64,000 nt of DNA, from NCBI RefSeq assembly GCF_014705945.2, contig NZ_CP062957.1, positions 1 through 64,000 on the forward strand. Direction: 5' to 3'. A program made the translations under genes and the position numbers. Source of the DNA: Rothia amarae. Lineage in GTDB: Bacteria > Actinomycetota > Actinomycetes > Actinomycetales > Micrococcaceae. Positions 36,611-64,000 of the stretch are shown one piece after another. The notes beneath the pieces are model-generated. The model made no database searches. It was not told where the DNA came from and saw nothing but the letters and a program-made list of their open reading frames with translations. Numbering within the stretch: position 1 is the stretch's first letter; each line of letters starts with the position of its first letter.

Positions 36611-36666
36611 TTATTGTAGAGAAAAGGGTGAACCCTCAGAGGGGTTCACCCTTTTCTCTACAATAA
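36611..36666. terminator. bidirectional terminator between traA and the 111-aa gene
   Basis: A perfect inverted repeat of about 25 bp (36611-36635 with 36642-36666) and a 6-nt loop. A-rich and T-rich ends on both sides make it a terminator for convergent genes. The stem is unusually long. Confidence 0.9.
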
Positions 36667-56614: not shown

Positions 56615-57250
56615 TTAGGGTCTTTTGGCCAAACTCGCTGTAACCGTTGAATGCGCTGCAATCCAATCCGCGGCACCAGGGGCAATCAGCTTCGCTATTG
56701 TATGGATGGAATCCAAAACCGCTAGTGTTTGCCTTTTCTCACGTTGCACATCTAATCGGATTAACGGTTCATGGTGAGCGCAACGGTTGCGCATCTTGTA
56801 AATCCTCTCTAAGTGGTATTCAAAATCTTCCCGAGAAACCTTGTGAGTGAGAGAAGCTAAGACTTTAGGCCATACCGTACTTTGATAAGTGCGGGTAAAG
56901 AGAAATCGCCAAAAATCAAAGGATAAATCCGCAATGATTTTTCCTGGAAGAGCTGGAGGGTTCATTGTGTGGTGGGTTCGTTGGCGGGCTTTTGTGATTG
57001 ATTTTTGCGCTTGGTGTGTTAGCGGGATGCGTGTGGATAAGAACCAGCCGACTCCGTAGGTGGCACTGAGGGCGCGGTCAATGGCGTTGCGAAGAAGCAC
57101 CTCTAGGTGCCCGATGTCGACAAGAAGTTCTTTGGTGATCCGGGCATTGTAAATGTAAAGCTGCTCAGGGTCTGGGTGGTGAGAGTATTTGCTGAGTCTG
57201 GGCGCAGAAAACCAGTGTTCGAGGGTGGTGAGATGCTGGTTGTTTTACAT
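56615..57250 (-). pseudogene. Abi-family (AbiD/AbiF-like) abortive-infection gene with broken start
   Basis: About 211 codons read as an Abi_2-type protein: LTTLEHWFSAPRLSKY near the start, LYIYNARITKELLVDIGHLEVLLRN split over two segments, and the C-terminal HEPN-like RNRCAHHEPL. In frame, the only ATG at the expected N-terminus (57250-57248) is followed at once by TAA. The next possible start (GTG 57100) would remove the first conserved ~50 residues. The gene is therefore probably inactive, unless a non-standard start is used. Confidence 0.7.
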
Positions 57251-58177: not shown

Positions 58178-59081
58178 TGAGGCTTATTCAAAAGTATGCA
58201 CACACCTCACACCCACCAACTAGACAACGGCCCCACCATAGCGGCAACCTTGAGGATAAATAACCACAAATATTCTCAAACCGCACCAGGAAGAACCGTT
58301 GCACCACCAGCGTACAACCGGCCTTACCGCCACGCAATTTGCCGCTCTACTGACAGCCCTGACCAACCAACTCATCTGGGGTAAACCAGGAGGAAGACCA
58401 CCAGCCCTCACTCCAGCTCAGGCACTCAAAACCACTCTGCTCTACCACCGACACAATCTCACCGAAGAGCTACTTGCTGAAATCTTCACCGTCTCGCAAC
58501 CTACTATCTCACGGACCATCAACACTATCGAAAAGGCGCTTGCAAAGGTCTTCAAACCTCTAGAACAGCCTTTGAAAATGAGCCTGGATGTACCAGGTTC
58601 TTTGGTTGTCGATGGAACTCTTGTACCCACCTGGAACTGGCGTTCACTAGGAAAAACAAATTTTTCGGGCAAACATAAACGAACCGGTTTCAACCACCAA
58701 GTCATCTGCACCCTCGATGGCAGGCTCTTAGTCATCACTGACCCGCTACCCGGGGCAAGGCATGATGCTCATGCTTTCAGAGCTCACGGGCTAGATCAGC
58801 TACTGGATTCCTCGACTCTGGCCGATAAGGGCTATATAGGCCTGGGGTTAGCAACCCCGACCAGGCGTAAGCCTGGTGTGAAAGTGCCTCAGGGTGTCAA
58901 GGATAATAATCGCATTATCAATAGATTACGGGCTGTGGTGGAGCGGGTTATCGCTCAAGTGAAGACCTGGCGGGTTCTTTATTCGGGGTTTAGGCGGCCG
59001 TTGAGTTTGTATCGGCAGGTGTTTTCGGTGGTGCGGGGTCTGGTGTTTTATGCGGCTGGGAGGACTTTTGAATAAGCCTCA
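58178..59081 (+). mobile_element. IS5-family insertion sequence
   Basis: A 904-bp element with perfect 18-bp terminal inverted repeats TGAGGCTTATTCAAAAGT (58178-58195; complement 59064-59081) and one transposase gene. The flanking bases differ (TAA left, ATG right), so no target duplication is evident. Its right end lies 33 bp before the gajA-like start codon. Confidence 0.92.
58299..59075 (+). CDS. IS5-family DDE transposase
   Basis: A 258-aa transposase of the DDE_Tnp_4 type, with an N-terminal HTH (LTEELLAEIFTVSQPTISRTI). The catalytic residues lie in LVVDGTLVPTW (Asp), ADKGYIGLG (Asp) and AVVERVIAQVKTW (Glu). It starts at TTG 58299; no better start with RBS is seen. The frame ends inside the right inverted repeat. 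All catalytic residues are present, so the element may be active. Confidence 0.9.
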   Translation: MHHQRTTGLTATQFAALLTALTNQLIWGKPGGRPPALTPAQALKTTLLYHRHNLTEELLAEIFTVSQPTISRTINTIEKALAKVFKPLEQPLKMSLDVPGSLVVDGTLVPTWNWRSLGKTNFSGKHKRTGFNHQVICTLDGRLLVITDPLPGARHDAHAFRAHGLDQLLDSSTLADKGYIGLGLATPTRRKPGVKVPQGVKDNNRIINRLRAVVERVIAQVKTWRVLYSGFRRPLSLYRQVFSVVRGLVFYAAGRTFE

Positions 59082-59114
59082 ATGTGAATCGTTCTGAAAT
59101 CAGGAGATGCTGGG

Positions 59115-61040
59115 ATGAAATTTTCTACAATACGGCTAAAAAATTTTCAGTCTTTTGGACCTAACCCCACTCCCATTGATCTCAGCTCACTTACCTTTGT
59201 CTTAGGGCCAAACGGATCAGGAAAAACTGCCGTTCTCCAAGCGCTTACGCGCCTCTTTAGCCCTATTCCCAATCAGCGCTCCATCCGCTTTGCAGATTTT
59301 CATGTCGCTCAAGAACTCACAGATAACGGTCATCAGAAAAAGGCAGAAGAGCTTTGGATTGAAGTGGAGATTGAATTTCCCGAGGCTGAGGAAGAAAACC
59401 CACACGCATCGACATCCGCCTTCTTTTCACACATGAGATTAGAGGAAGAAGGCAGTATACCAAAATGCCGCGTTCGGCTGACGGCTACTATCAATGCTTT
59501 TGAAGAAATCGAAGAACGTATTGAATATGTACTGAGCTATAACTCCGAGGGTAAGCCCGAGGACGTTCAACCAATGAGTAGATATGACCGTGGAAGCATC
59601 GAGGTATTCTATCTACCAGCACGACGTGATCCCGGAGACCATATTTCTTATGCTGCATCTTCTTTGCTTGGCAGAACTCTTCGGGCTGCTAACTGGATAG
59701 CAGAAAGTGAAAAACTTGAAGCTCTGAATGAGGAGATTAGCACTACTCTGGCAGAGAATAAGGCTGTTATAGAATTTAGCGATAATCTTCGAATTCAATG
59801 GGAAAAGGTTCATGCAGGTTCTTATCTTAAGAATCCGGAGATAGTCTTTGGTCATAATAGAATTGAAGGCGTTCTGCGACAGCTATCTATTCAGTTTTCC
59901 CCTTCTCATCAAGCGAATGCCTTACCATCTGAAAACTTATCTGATGGTCAAAAATCTTTGCTCTATATTTCCCTGGCATTGGCTTGGCAGAAGCTATGTC
60001 GCGGGGTTCTTGCGGGGGAAGAAATAGGTCTAGACCCAGATAAGTTGCGGCCCCCGGTGCATATTATTTTTGCGTTGGAGGAGCCTGAGAATAGTCTTTC
60101 TCCACAGTATCTTGGGAGAATCATCCGCCAATTACGAGATGCCTGTGATGAAGGAGATGTGCAAGCTCTTATTGCTACTCATGCATCCACCCTGTTGCGA
60201 AGAGTTGACCCGGCTGATATTCGTTTTCTGAGGCTAAATCACGCTAGAGAAACAACAGTACGCCGCATTATTCTTCCCACAGAAGATACTGAAGCTGCAA
60301 AATATGTTCGAGAGGCAGTGATGGCTTTTCCCGAACTTTATTTCTCTCGTCTCGTTGTGCTTGGAGAAGGCGCTAGCGAGCTTGTTGTCTTACCTCGAGT
60401 TCTTGAAGCAGCAGGAATCAGAGAAGATGACACCTCCGTTTCAGTGGTTCCTTTGGGTGGTAGACACGTGAACCATTTTTGGAGACTACTAGAGAACCTC
60501 GAGATACCTTATGTGACATTGCTTGACTTAGATAGTGCAAGGCATGGAGGGGGATGGGGACGTATTCATACTGCTATGCGTAATATTAATAAATATCGTC
60601 CTGAATTCTATTCTCAAAACCACTTTGATTTTTTGCCCCCAGCAGGTTATGAAGAATCTATACCTGTATTTGGCCAATCTCCGGATGTCTTAAAACGCTT
60701 AGAAAATTCAAATGAAGTATTTTTCTCTTCTCCTCTTGACCTGGACCTCATGATGATGAAAGCATTTCCCTGTGCTTATCAAGTTCGCCTAAGAAATCCC
60801 CGCGATACAACTGTTACAAGCGTCTTAGGAAAAAGTCACCGTAACGAAGTACTTCTGGGTAAAGATAATCTAAAACTACTTGAAGATTACCGTGAAAAAT
60901 TTGGGCAAAAAAGTAAGCCCGCAAGTCATCTTCAAGCATTAGCTCAGCTAAATGACAATGACCTTCTAGAAAACTTACCTCCTGTTTTGATACGTCTAGC
61001 TGATGTTGTGAGAGAGAAGTTAGCGGAGCTCCCTGAATGA
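59115..61040 (+). CDS. gajA: GajA-like OLD-family ATPase-TOPRIM endonuclease (Gabija)
   Basis: A 641-aa protein. The N-terminal ABC-type ATPase has Walker A GPNGSGKTA (31-39), signature ENLSDGQKS near 274-282 and Walker B FALEEPENS near 317. The C-terminal TOPRIM nuclease has LVVLGEGASELVVLPRVLE (about 413-431) and the acidic TLLDLDSARHGG near 470. OLD nuclease plus a UvrD-type helicase in one operon is the Gabija anti-phage system, whose GajA nicks DNA when nucleotides fall. Slightly longer than Bacillus GajA (~580). ATG 59115 follows a weak AGGAGATG RBS. Confidence 0.85.
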   Translation: MKFSTIRLKNFQSFGPNPTPIDLSSLTFVLGPNGSGKTAVLQALTRLFSPIPNQRSIRFADFHVAQELTDNGHQKKAEELWIEVEIEFPEAEEENPHASTSAFFSHMRLEEEGSIPKCRVRLTATINAFEEIEERIEYVLSYNSEGKPEDVQPMSRYDRGSIEVFYLPARRDPGDHISYAASSLLGRTLRAANWIAESEKLEALNEEISTTLAENKAVIEFSDNLRIQWEKVHAGSYLKNPEIVFGHNRIEGVLRQLSIQFSPSHQANALPSENLSDGQKSLLYISLALAWQKLCRGVLAGEEIGLDPDKLRPPVHIIFALEEPENSLSPQYLGRIIRQLRDACDEGDVQALIATHASTLLRRVDPADIRFLRLNHARETTVRRIILPTEDTEAAKYVREAVMAFPELYFSRLVVLGEGASELVVLPRVLEAAGIREDDTSVSVVPLGGRHVNHFWRLLENLEIPYVTLLDLDSARHGGGWGRIHTAMRNINKYRPEFYSQNHFDFLPPAGYEESIPVFGQSPDVLKRLENSNEVFFSSPLDLDLMMMKAFPCAYQVRLRNPRDTTVTSVLGKSHRNEVLLGKDNLKLLEDYREKFGQKSKPASHLQALAQLNDNDLLENLPPVLIRLADVVREKLAELPE

Positions 61041-62692
61041 TTAGCCCCAGCAATTGGAAACCAACTGACGGAATCACCTTAGAACCTAATGCTTATAAGG
61101 CGGCTACTAGTGATGAAGGAAGTGTAATTGTCGCAGCTGGACCCGGAGCCGGTAAGACCGAGATGTTAGCGCAACGGGCGGACTATCTCTTACGGACCGG
61201 CATATGTCCTTACCCTAGGCGTATTCTTGCTATTTCATTCAAAGTGGATGCCGCCAGAAATCTACAAGAACGCGTTCGCAAAAGATCAGGAGCAAAACAT
61301 GCCAAACGTTTTGATAGCTTGACATTCCATGCCTTCGCAAAACGTATCATCGACAACTATCGGCCTGCTCTCACAGGTCCTCATACTCTAAATCCTCGCT
61401 ATGTTGTCGGAGAAGAAGCAGACTTCCCAAATGCTATAGGCTACAAAAACATGGTTCCTTTAGCTACTGAAATTCTACGGACCAACTCTTACGCGCTACA
61501 TGGTCTAAGGCAAACTTACACCCATATCTTCTTCGATGAATTTCAAGATGTAACCAGCGAGCAATACGAACTTTTCGTCACGGCGTTTGGCGAGACCTCT
61601 GCGCAACTTACAGCAGTAGGCGATACAAAACAAAGAATCATGGCATTCGCAGGCGCCCTAGAGGGCATTATGGGAAAGTTTTCAACTGAATTTGATGCCT
61701 TATCTCTGAACCTATACCAGAACCGTAGATCCGCTCCTGTCCTACAGCGCATGCAAAATCGCATAATTTCAGAAATAGAACCTCATGATGCAATCCCTCA
61801 GAAAGAAATCGAAGGTGAAAACGGAATAATTGAAGTGCTTCCCTTTCCTACGTCAAGTGATGAGGCGCAACGTATAGCAGAACTAGTAAGACATCAAATA
61901 GACGCAGGTATTCCCCCTTCAGAAATAGCAGTTTTAGTAAGACAACAAGCCAATCTTGTCGCGGGAGAACTCTTCGATGCTTTTGATGCGCAGAACATCT
62001 CATATCGCAATGACCAGGAGCTTCAAGATCTTGCATCTGAGCCACTTGCAATGTTGATTTTTAATTTTGTACAAGTTCTCACAGGGACTAACGAACCTAC
62101 TGCTTATGCAAGCCTTATGAATCTTGTATCAGTGATGTCTACGGATGACGAAAAAACAATTAGGATTGACCGCGCAATTAAGGAAAAGCTCAATACTCTA
62201 GGAAAAACTCTACGAAATAATCCTTCCTGCCGTGATAGTGCTCAGTTCTGGAAACCTGAAATATTAGATTTTTTAAACCTAGTCTCTGATTCATTTCTTA
62301 TAGCACTATCAGCCTCTTACTCTCAAGGTGACCGTCTAAAAGAGCTTATTGCTGAGGTTCTCGAGGTTTTTGAAAGAACTCTCGATTTGGTGAAAGATCC
62401 TTTGGACGCAGTGCGGCGCCTTACTGGAACGAATGCTGTTCGAGTTCTGACTATCCATAAATCGAAAGGGCTGGAGTTTAGACATGTTATCGTTCTCGGA
62501 GTTGAAAACGAATTATTCTGGGGTAGCTTAGAAGAGACTCAGGCAGAGTTCTTTGTCGCGATATCTCGTGCTAAAGAACGGCTCACTTTAACACACGTAA
62601 ATTTCAGATTGCGCCCGGAACAAGCTACTAAACGGTGGGATGAGAAAAGGAGCGCACATAAGCAATTTCTTGAATATGCGAAGAGGATTTGA
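61037..62692 (+). CDS. gajB: GajB-like UvrD/Rep-family helicase (Gabija)
   Basis: A 551-aa superfamily-1A helicase with Walker A AGPGAGKTEML (about 34-44), DEXX-box FFDEFQDV (about 163-170), motif III VGDTKQRIMAFAG, motif V TIHKSKGLEFRHV (about 473-485) and motif VI VAISRAKERLTL near 510. It overlaps gajA by 4 bp (ATGA), showing coupled translation. Size and pairing fit GajB. A UvrD-like repair helicase is possible in isolation but unlikely beside an OLD nuclease. Confidence 0.88.
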   Translation: MISPSNWKPTDGITLEPNAYKAATSDEGSVIVAAGPGAGKTEMLAQRADYLLRTGICPYPRRILAISFKVDAARNLQERVRKRSGAKHAKRFDSLTFHAFAKRIIDNYRPALTGPHTLNPRYVVGEEADFPNAIGYKNMVPLATEILRTNSYALHGLRQTYTHIFFDEFQDVTSEQYELFVTAFGETSAQLTAVGDTKQRIMAFAGALEGIMGKFSTEFDALSLNLYQNRRSAPVLQRMQNRIISEIEPHDAIPQKEIEGENGIIEVLPFPTSSDEAQRIAELVRHQIDAGIPPSEIAVLVRQQANLVAGELFDAFDAQNISYRNDQELQDLASEPLAMLIFNFVQVLTGTNEPTAYASLMNLVSVMSTDDEKTIRIDRAIKEKLNTLGKTLRNNPSCRDSAQFWKPEILDFLNLVSDSFLIALSASYSQGDRLKELIAEVLEVFERTLDLVKDPLDAVRRLTGTNAVRVLTIHKSKGLEFRHVIVLGVENELFWGSLEETQAEFFVAISRAKERLTLTHVNFRLRPEQATKRWDEKRSAHKQFLEYAKRI

Positions 62693-62702
62693 GTATTTGG
62701 GG

Positions 62703-63656
62703 TTACTCGAATACAGCACCAACCACCCTTGCCGATGAGTTCTCTAATCTCGACCGGGCGTGATCATATCGTCTGGTCGTCCGTGGGTCTTTATGGCCTA
62801 GTGAGTCCTGCAGATGGTGCAGAGCAACCCCCATTTCCAGTGCTAAAGTCGCGTGGGTGTGGCGCAGGACGTGGGCGGATACGGTTTTTCTGATGCTAGC
62901 AGTGAGGGCTAGTTTTCTCAGCAACCCATCTACGTTGCTTCGTTGCCAGGGCCTACCGGTACGGGTGATAAAGACCAGGGGAGAAGTCCCAGTCTTTACT
63001 TGAGTCTCTACTTCTAGCCCTGTTGTTGCGGTCAATTTCCGAAGATTCCGTAGTGTATGTTCAGGCAAATACACTGCTGATTTCTTTCCACCTTTGCGAG
63101 TAATCAGCAGCCGCCCTTCAGAAATATCAGATTCCCTGATATTGAGGGCTTCGCTGATACGCAATCCAGTGCTGAGGAGCAGGTCCACGAGGGTTTGGGC
63201 TCTTAAAGAGTGCTCGGTGGCAGCATCGAGGAGTCTGAGTGCTTCGCGTTGAGTGAGGGCTTGGGTTGCGGTGAAGTCTGGATCAATAGCAGGTCGGCGG
63301 ATGTATTCGGCCGGGGATTTTTCGATTACCTCATCGAGCAATAAAAAACGATAGAAGGCTGAGATTGCTGCCAGTCGCCGAGCAACCGATGCGTTCGAGT
63401 TGGTGTATTGTTCGTGGACTCTAGAGAAAACATCGAGGTGGGTTCGTCGTACCTGCAGTAGATCAACGCCTGCTTCGTCCAAAAAAGTGCAGAAGATTTT
63501 CAGATCATTGAGATAAGCCTGCTGAGTATTTTCCGAAGTGTAGGAGAGTGCCCATGAGGCGATGAGATTGCGGTGTTTGACGAAATTCGGCAGTGTTGAG
63601 CTCGCTTCCATCAACTCTGATGGTTCGCTGAACACTTCGACAAGTTCACTAGACAT
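62703..63656 (-). CDS. Xer-type tyrosine recombinase
   Basis: About 317 aa from ATG 63656 (a GTG at 63698 would add 14 residues). The N-terminal SAM-like core-binding domain is followed by the catalytic domain with Arg in LLSTGLRISEAL, Lys in TRKGGKKSAV, HVLRHTHATLAL (His-x2-Arg), LGHKDPRTTRRYDHAR (His and nucleophile Tyr). All catalytic residues are present. It converges with gajB 10 bp away. With the dif-like site upstream, plasmid dimer resolution or island integration are the likely jobs. Confidence 0.9.
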   Translation of the reverse strand: MSSELVEVFSEPSELMEASSTLPNFVKHRNLIASWALSYTSENTQQAYLNDLKIFCTFLDEAGVDLLQVRRTHLDVFSRVHEQYTNSNASVARRLAAISAFYRFLLLDEVIEKSPAEYIRRPAIDPDFTATQALTQREALRLLDAATEHSLRAQTLVDLLLSTGLRISEALNIRESDISEGRLLITRKGGKKSAVYLPEHTLRNLRKLTATTGLEVETQVKTGTSPLVFITRTGRPWQRSNVDGLLRKLALTASIRKTVSAHVLRHTHATLALEMGVALHHLQDSLGHKDPRTTRRYDHARSRLENSSARVVGAVFE

Positions 63657-63738
63657 TTCCACCGCATTTCCTGGACAAAAATATTTTTTGAGACTCACAC
63701 CACCGAAAAACCGGTGCTGGGTTCACCCAACCCCTTTT

Positions 63739-63766
63739 ATGGTACATAACTTACATTATGAACCAT
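63739..63766. other. dif/Xer-like recombination site
   Basis: Two 11-bp arms, ATGGTACATAA (63739-63749) and TTATGAACCAT (63756-63766), flank the 6-bp centre CTTACA. The inner CATAA-N6-TTATG is identical in layout to E. coli dif, and the outer bases extend the symmetry (TTTT/AAAA). It lies in the promoter region of the tyrosine recombinase gene, so it could be both the crossover site and an autoregulatory operator. Function is inferred from structure. Confidence 0.65.
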
Positions 63767-63791
63767 AAAACTATTAAAAGGGAGGGGTGAT

Positions 63792-63905
63792 ATGTTTTCG
63801 ATGCATCAGATGCCGCTGGAGGGGGTGTGTACGCAAGATAAATTCAAGAGTGTTTTGAGACACAAAAATACTAACTTAGTAGCAAATAGCCGTTTTTACT
63901 ACTAA
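63792..63905 (+). CDS. possible 37-aa small ORF
   Basis: ATG 63792 is preceded by a strong GGAGGGG (63781-63787) and encodes 37 residues (MFSMHQMPLEGVCTQDKF…RFYY). It diverges from the recombinase gene. No family is recognisable, and the 3' half lies in the left arm and loop of the inverted repeat at 63867-63914. It could be a leader peptide. Confidence 0.3.
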   Translation: MFSMHQMPLEGVCTQDKFKSVLRHKNTNLVANSRFYY

Positions 63906-63914
63906 GCTAGTATT
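63867..63914. repeat. 16-bp inverted repeat near the right edge
   Basis: AATACTAACTTAGTAG (63867-63882) and CTACTAAGCTAGTATT (63899-63914) are complementary with one mismatch, separated by 16 bp. It could be an operator, a terminator for the small ORF, or a second recombination or replication site. At the very end, AAGGAG (63985-63990) stands 5 bp before GTG 63996, which may open a gene beyond the window. Confidence 0.6.
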
Positions 63915-64000
63915 CTGTTCGAGGCGTCCGCCCGAATGCAAAATGCAGGGTCTAAATTGCAGTTAGTACCCTGCCGAATGTATCAAGGAGATACTGTGCA

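Follow-up and report, generated by a model that had tools for sequence, protein, structure and literature searches.

Cre and ResD are plasmid-borne single tyrosine recombinases that resolve multimers, and the site of a further plasmid recombinase, MrpA, is named mrpS. The passages of the literature that deal with such systems describe MrpA of the Streptomyces plasmid SCP2 as an actinobacterial plasmid tyrosine recombinase resolving multimers (PMC3218068), and ResU of the Deinococcus plasmid pUE10 as an XerD-family plasmid recombinase required for stability (cited in PMC5711781). They also describe gene-plus-site modules for XerS, XerH and the plasmid-borne XerL, the last being a single recombinase of the Legionellales, carried on a plasmid in Coxiella, with an adjacent dif-like site (PMC9765430). 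Multimer resolution by a single plasmid recombinase is already known, and the system that we describe here, from a plasmid contig of the Rothia type (67 kb), is not a new kind of machine; related plasmids share its design. MrpA/mrpS would be a system of the same type, i.e., a multimer-resolving recombinase of an actinobacterial plasmid, and ResU, as described, resembles our recombinase as a plasmid recombinase of the XerD family. XerL likewise pairs one plasmid recombinase with an adjoining dif-like site, but differs in being its host's only Xer, proposed in the relevant part of the paper to serve the chromosome too (PMC9765430). XerS/difSL and XerH/difH resolve chromosomes as the single Xer of their hosts, whereas here the gene is on a plasmid and the host has its own XerC, XerD and a dif candidate; the likeness to XerH and XerS drawn in the initial annotation holds for the gene-plus-site architecture and fails for the role, and we do not class this gene with the single-recombinase chromosome systems. 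Among the matches listed from open-access titles and abstracts, there was no description of this site family.

The strongest functional support comes from a published deletion of ORF4 in the Kocuria palustris plasmid pKPAL3 (PMC5711781). ORF4 belongs to the same clade as our recombinase, to which it is 50.9% identical, and a palindromic CATAA-N6-TTATG site lies 32 bp before its start codon, i.e., upstream of the gene, as here; pKPAL3 differs in being a 4.4-kb plasmid and in having other outer arms. According to the passages of the paper that concern pKPAL3, the plasmid is present at about 20 copies in vector form, and, of the ORF deletions, a drop in segregational stability in K. rhizophila is reported for that of ORF4 alone, whether the site was kept or removed being unstated (PMC5711781). 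Those passages compare ORF4 with XerD and ResU and contain no mention of the site, and the words dimer, multimer, palindrome and inverted repeat are absent from the main text, with “dif” occurring in two reference titles only. The annotated gene upstream of ORF4 shares its last 11 bp with the pKPAL3 site, and only 32 bp separate the end of the site from ORF4, which leaves scant room in between for accessory sequences.

We analyzed a window of 64,000 bp, i.e., the whole stretch of DNA under study; it begins at base 1 and ends at base 64000 of contig G000:C2, which is 67,237 bp long and belongs to a 2.48-Mb genome of four contigs. The two ends of this contig are contiguous in plasmid p3 of Rothia terrae (p3 6662-6762 matches 67137-67237, and p3 6763-27974 matches 1-21211), which fits a circular plasmid. 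The contig encodes a 317-aa Xer-type tyrosine recombinase on the minus strand at 62703-63656. The ORF as listed spans 62703-63698 on this strand, and reading from a GTG at 63698 is also possible; the ATG at 63656 is the start that agrees with annotated relatives, and measured from it the palindrome lies 82 bp upstream, in line with the roughly 80 bp given in the initial annotation. The protein contains a Phage_integrase domain (104.9 bits, Pfam) and a SAM-like N-terminal domain (44.1 bits), and the R, K, H-x-x-R, H and Y residues are conserved: in a comparison of 12 recombinase sequences, R166, K188, H262, R265 and Y297 are invariant and H288 nearly so, and we take these six to be the catalytic residues. 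The complete R-K-H-R-H-Y set places the protein in the tyrosine recombinases (Xer/phage integrase superfamily). It is neither XerC nor XerD, as it scores well under the cut-offs of the NCBIfam equivalog models for XerD (154.8 vs 329.6 bits) and XerC (147.5 vs 335.15 bits), and as the plasmid recombinases form their own clade in our tree (support 100/99), separate from the chromosomal XerC/XerD; the score against the XerS model is also below the cut-off (71.8 vs 267). Its closest named relatives, at 89-91% identity, are encoded on the R. terrae KJZ-14 plasmids p1, p2 and p3, and the family records examined annotate these recombinases merely as “tyrosine-type recombinase/integrase.”

The proposed recombination site is an 11-6-11 palindrome at 63739-63766, ATGGTACATAA-cttaca-TTATGAACCAT, in which 10 of 11 positions of the arms ATGGTACATAA and TTATGAACCAT are paired around the core CTTACA, and which extends to 15-bp arms at 63735-63770 (14 of 15 paired). 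Both the sequence and its repeats confirm that it has the CATAA-N6-TTATG layout of dif. When the window was simulated 100 times with a first-order Markov model, one copy contained a 15-6-15 palindrome of 14 or more pairs and none an 11-6-11 palindrome combining 10 or more pairs with the ATAA/TTAT boxes. In the real window, the 14-pair level is reached by one further 15-6-15 palindrome (at 36621) and the 10-pair level by four further 11-6-11 palindromes; among the good palindromes of this geometry, both boxes are found solely in that at 63739-63766. The inverted repeat at 36621-36656 is a perfect 15-6-15 palindrome, and no other of that geometry in the window is as good. On its own, the ATAA-N6-TTAT motif is not unusual, with 2 found vs 0.42 expected in the window, and we counted its weak occurrence at 367-380 (ATAACATACATTAT) as chance; the p3 copy of this motif has 7 of 11 pairs, i.e., 3 of 7 at positions outside the boxes. 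Between the site and the start codon is an 82-bp leader (63657-63738, minus strand) that is similar in the Rothia plasmids and contains a weak terminator-like hairpin at 63716-63731. On the far side of the site, a hairpin with a 20-bp stem at 63867-63914, terminator-like on the minus strand, possibly shields the recombinase gene from upstream transcription.

When 395 genomes from the same family were searched at E ≤ 1e-45, at least 20 homologue places emerged in 17 of them; at most five candidates were scored per genome, and some places may therefore be missed. At 19 of the 20 places listed, the 100 bp upstream of the match contain the start of a palindrome that has both boxes and is paired at 8-11 of 11 positions, against a background of 2 in 134,728 positions elsewhere in the loci. 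The sole miss, L030 on a 3.78-Mb contig, has by eye a shortened, decayed site that is 3 bases too short and lies 2 bases before the ATG. The R. terrae plasmids p1, p2 and p3 and pKPAL3 likewise have the site upstream of the recombinase, and in a further Kocuria plasmid (L011) a candidate site lies 449 bp before the match. One locus (L013, G034:C39:5171-5806) holds a broken recombinase copy, with the frame lost after about 200 aa, and the site is still there. The genetic linkage of site and recombinase gene that characterizes single-recombinase systems is thus present at these 19 places. Outside this set the association thins out: of nine more distant plasmid recombinases (29-44% identity), taken from 1,454 recombinase matches, both boxes are present at two, a single box at one and no such site at the remaining six, among them a partial homologue in Arthrobacter agilis, a member of the same taxonomic family (L041; 69% coverage, 44% identity). 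A further 28 loci came from a profile that included XerD, and most of the matches score and align like XerD; they therefore serve just as a mixed control, in which no site was found at 25 of 28.

The outer arms vary by clade (ATGGTAC, TATAAC, ACATGAC, CCACATC and CACACG) and keep their complementarity. Across 22 distinct sites (counted without L009, which has the same site as L008, and without L036, whose site duplicates that of L023), they pair at a mean of 5.5 of 7 positions vs 3.08 with shuffled partners, a value reached in 0 of 10,000 shuffles and inflated by the fact that the sites had been chosen as palindromic. The left arms of the Rothia p1/p2 sites are paired at only 8 of 11 positions. 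Arm distance tracks protein distance, with a Mantel r of 0.80 computed without L009, L013 (broken gene) and L030 (no site); a 14-bp flank gives r = 0.46, below the arms and also above its own permutations.

The CATAA-N6-TTATG motif occurs exactly once each on the 67,237-bp contig and on R. terrae p1, p2 and p3, and pKPAL3 has one boxed palindrome. The contig contains no further match to the site at up to 3 mismatches, and the full-replicon search proposed in the initial annotation thus returned no second CATAA-N6-TTATG. One site per monomer, as found on all five replicons, gives two per dimer and is therefore the layout of multimer resolution. We conclude, with a probability of about 0.8, that the recombinase and its site form a self-contained single-recombinase module for plasmid dimer resolution, of the MrpA/ResU kind; the idea of one recombinase paired with a dif-like site of its own beside the gene is borne out by the 19 of 20 homologue places, the arm-arm pairing and the one motif per replicon. 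From the sequences of the recombinase and the site, the pairing, the co-variation and the one site per plasmid, we infer binding, strand exchange, dimer resolution and autoregulation as follows. One plasmid-encoded recombinase would bind both arms of its own dif-like 28-bp site. Homologous recombination would produce a plasmid dimer with two directly repeated sites, which the recombinase would synapse, exchanging strands at the 6-bp core and restoring monomers. This would keep the plasmid stable, with both daughter cells inheriting a copy.

Under the first alternative, the site would be served by the host's chromosomal XerC/XerD, as are cer, psi or pdif, with the plasmid recombinase doing something else. 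The host chromosome does encode its own XerD and XerC (named by similarity and neighborhood), and C1:1294818 is the position of a dif candidate resembling the plasmid sites in its left arm and core (TTTACATAA-TGTAGA). However, the site travels with the plasmid recombinase, and its arms track the clade of that protein. In addition, the five loci that group with the host XerD in our tree have no such site (nor does L076, which falls outside the XerD group), and the three mixed-control loci with a full or partial site (L067, L068 and L083) all fall outside this group. The pKPAL3 recombinase is itself required for stability, according to the passages on this plasmid (PMC5711781). We consider service by the host enzymes improbable. 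The chromosome also carries a near-match to the plasmid site with 3 mismatches (TAGTAGATAACCTACATTATGAAGCA, G000:C1:1784765-1784790).

It is also quite improbable that the recombinase is an integrase and the palindrome its attachment site, serving to insert the plasmid into the chromosome or another replicon. Tyrosine recombinases are often integrases, a gene of the excisionase family lies about 3 kb from the recombinase on p3, and four genomes (G113, G042, G110 and G291) have their homologues on contigs measuring between 633 kb and 3.78 Mb; these copies may lie outside plasmids. An inserted element would be expected to lie between two sites, yet G042, G110 and G113 have one site each, and no excisionase is annotated around the gene on p1 and p2. 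Orphan sites on other contigs could also be read in favor of integration. Our search with clade patterns, which covered 17 genomes, demonstrated that most sites adjoin a recombinase, the exceptions being three orphans, a 2-mismatch match in G297, and G291 (the genome of L030), where there was none. The orphans are located at 5072-5097 of L056 (G034:C11), at about 4194-4219 of L057 (G177:C65) and at about 4823-4848 of L058 (G319:C1), and the 10-12 kb extracted around each contain no recombinase of the family; in G177, however, two of the six core positions are not the same in the orphan and the resident site. Genes for a CBASS-type cyclase and a cytosine methylase lie near the L057 orphan. In the same search, a genome with three homologues contained three exact sites and one 2-mismatch match, and the host chromosome gave one loose-pattern match, which is non-palindromic.

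Under a third alternative, strand exchange would not take place at the palindrome, which would act solely as an operator, bound by a regulator or by the recombinase in the role of repressor; this would account for its promoter or leader position throughout the family. We analyzed this geometry in 22 loci, leaving out L009, L011 and L030. In 16 of them, no more than 24 bp separate the site from the most upstream usable start codon, and in seven (L027, L028, L029, L031, L032, L033 and L035) the site ends 2-5 bp before that codon; 21 of the loci have a -10-like hexamer, (C/G)ATAAT, oriented toward the gene. Against an operator alone, Xer core sites have this same arrangement of 11-6-11 arms and CATAA/TTATG boxes, the recombinase adjoins the site in each locus (the loci having been found via the recombinase), and upstream of the hexamer there is no -35 signal above the control (2.41 vs 2.35 matches in the 22 loci), so that we rejected a -35 box; the conserved polarity of the core may serve recombination equally well. 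We therefore regard a purely regulatory palindrome as very improbable. Alongside dimer resolution, the geometry suggests that the site is probably coupled to the recombinase's own expression: since it sits where the promoter or 5′ leader must be, recombinase bound there would probably curb its own synthesis. The placement of the site in the recombinase promoter region, as initially annotated, agrees with its position and is not matched by the sigma-70 scan of 63500-64000, which recognized 0 promoters.

The genes next to the recombinase vary among p1, p2 and p3. On our contig they form a genuine Gabija operon, with gajA (59115-61040, plus strand; GajA 751.5 bits) and gajB (61037-62692, plus strand, convergent; GajB 626.4 bits), which are neighbors outside the module and are bordered on the left by an IS5-like element at 58178-59087, its extent taken from matches to other plasmids and its NCBIfam IS5 score being under the cut-off. 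A system of the pdif type, in which site pairs would bound movable cassettes such as Gabija, would suit these variable neighbors and the three orphan sites, but is almost certainly not what this replicon carries unless the weak motif at 367-380 is active, since the 67-kb contig, p1, p2 and p3 each have a single CATAA-N6-TTATG, the contig has no other match at up to 3 mismatches, and Gabija is bordered by the IS-like element. The suggestion in the initial annotation that Gabija is a dif-bounded module is contradicted for the same reasons, its left border being IS5-like and its right border the recombinase.

On the same side of the recombinase as Gabija, p1 and p3 encode a TIR protein of the Thoeris type (about 290 bits with ThsB models) and p2 has a weak Abi-like match; an Abi-like ORF with a weak PADLOC PD-T4-5 match (30 bits) is also present at 56615-57100 of the window, p2 having a similar one near its recombinase. 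For other genomes, a PADLOC scan (E ≤ 1e-25) of ORFs mostly picked by size, with a twelfth locus (L095) left out, identified matches downstream of the recombinase in 4 of 11 loci (6 of 20 ORFs), i.e., type IIG restriction enzymes or candidate defense genes, and upstream in 2 of 10 loci (2 of 20 ORFs, one GlgB-like). These counts are too low to claim a defense hotspot downstream of the recombinase, and we treat them as a lead only. R. terrae p1 (about 49585-85021) and p2 share an identical stretch of more than 35 kb that runs from one side across the site, and the first mismatch comes 61 bp beyond the point where its CATAA begins. As this mismatch lies past the core and the recombinase gene is itself mosaic, homologous recombination is a simpler cause of the p1/p2 mosaic than a core crossover, which we rejected. 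Between the other Rothia plasmids, homology ends at the left arm of the site, an observation explained as well by selection on site plus gene. A more elaborate version of the dimer-resolution module, which we consider unlikely, is that the site would be both substrate and operator, with binding at one site shutting the promoter and synapsis in a dimer altering occupancy and expression (a dimer sensor); the arms and cores shared by co-resident plasmids would then form an exchange joint, and the 3′ side a slot for swapped defense systems (Gabija, Thoeris-type TIR, type IIG restriction).

Elsewhere on the plasmid, bases 1-21211 of the window together with the contig end at 67137-67237 are 99.96% identical to R. 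terrae p3 over 21.2 kb. This shared block encodes heavy-metal resistance and has IS3-type copies at both ends in p3, which points to a metal-resistance island recently exchanged between plasmids. A ctRNA_pGA1 antisense RNA (2507-2584) lies beside a 495-aa Replicase-family gene (1019-2506), as in plasmid copy control. Many short repeats of the GTCTGAAATATGTAG and AATGCGCACA types are present at 66600-67160 of the contig, outside the window, and at 1-500 of the window; this area is perhaps a replication or partition region.

For this family of actinobacterial plasmid recombinases, a likely recombination site is now proposed, and the module would account for the published loss of stability of pKPAL3 vectors without ORF4. 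The family offers a recombinase-arm specificity code with many natural variants that is open to testing, and, if our reading is true, compact Cre-like tools and vector stabilizers for the Micrococcaceae could follow.
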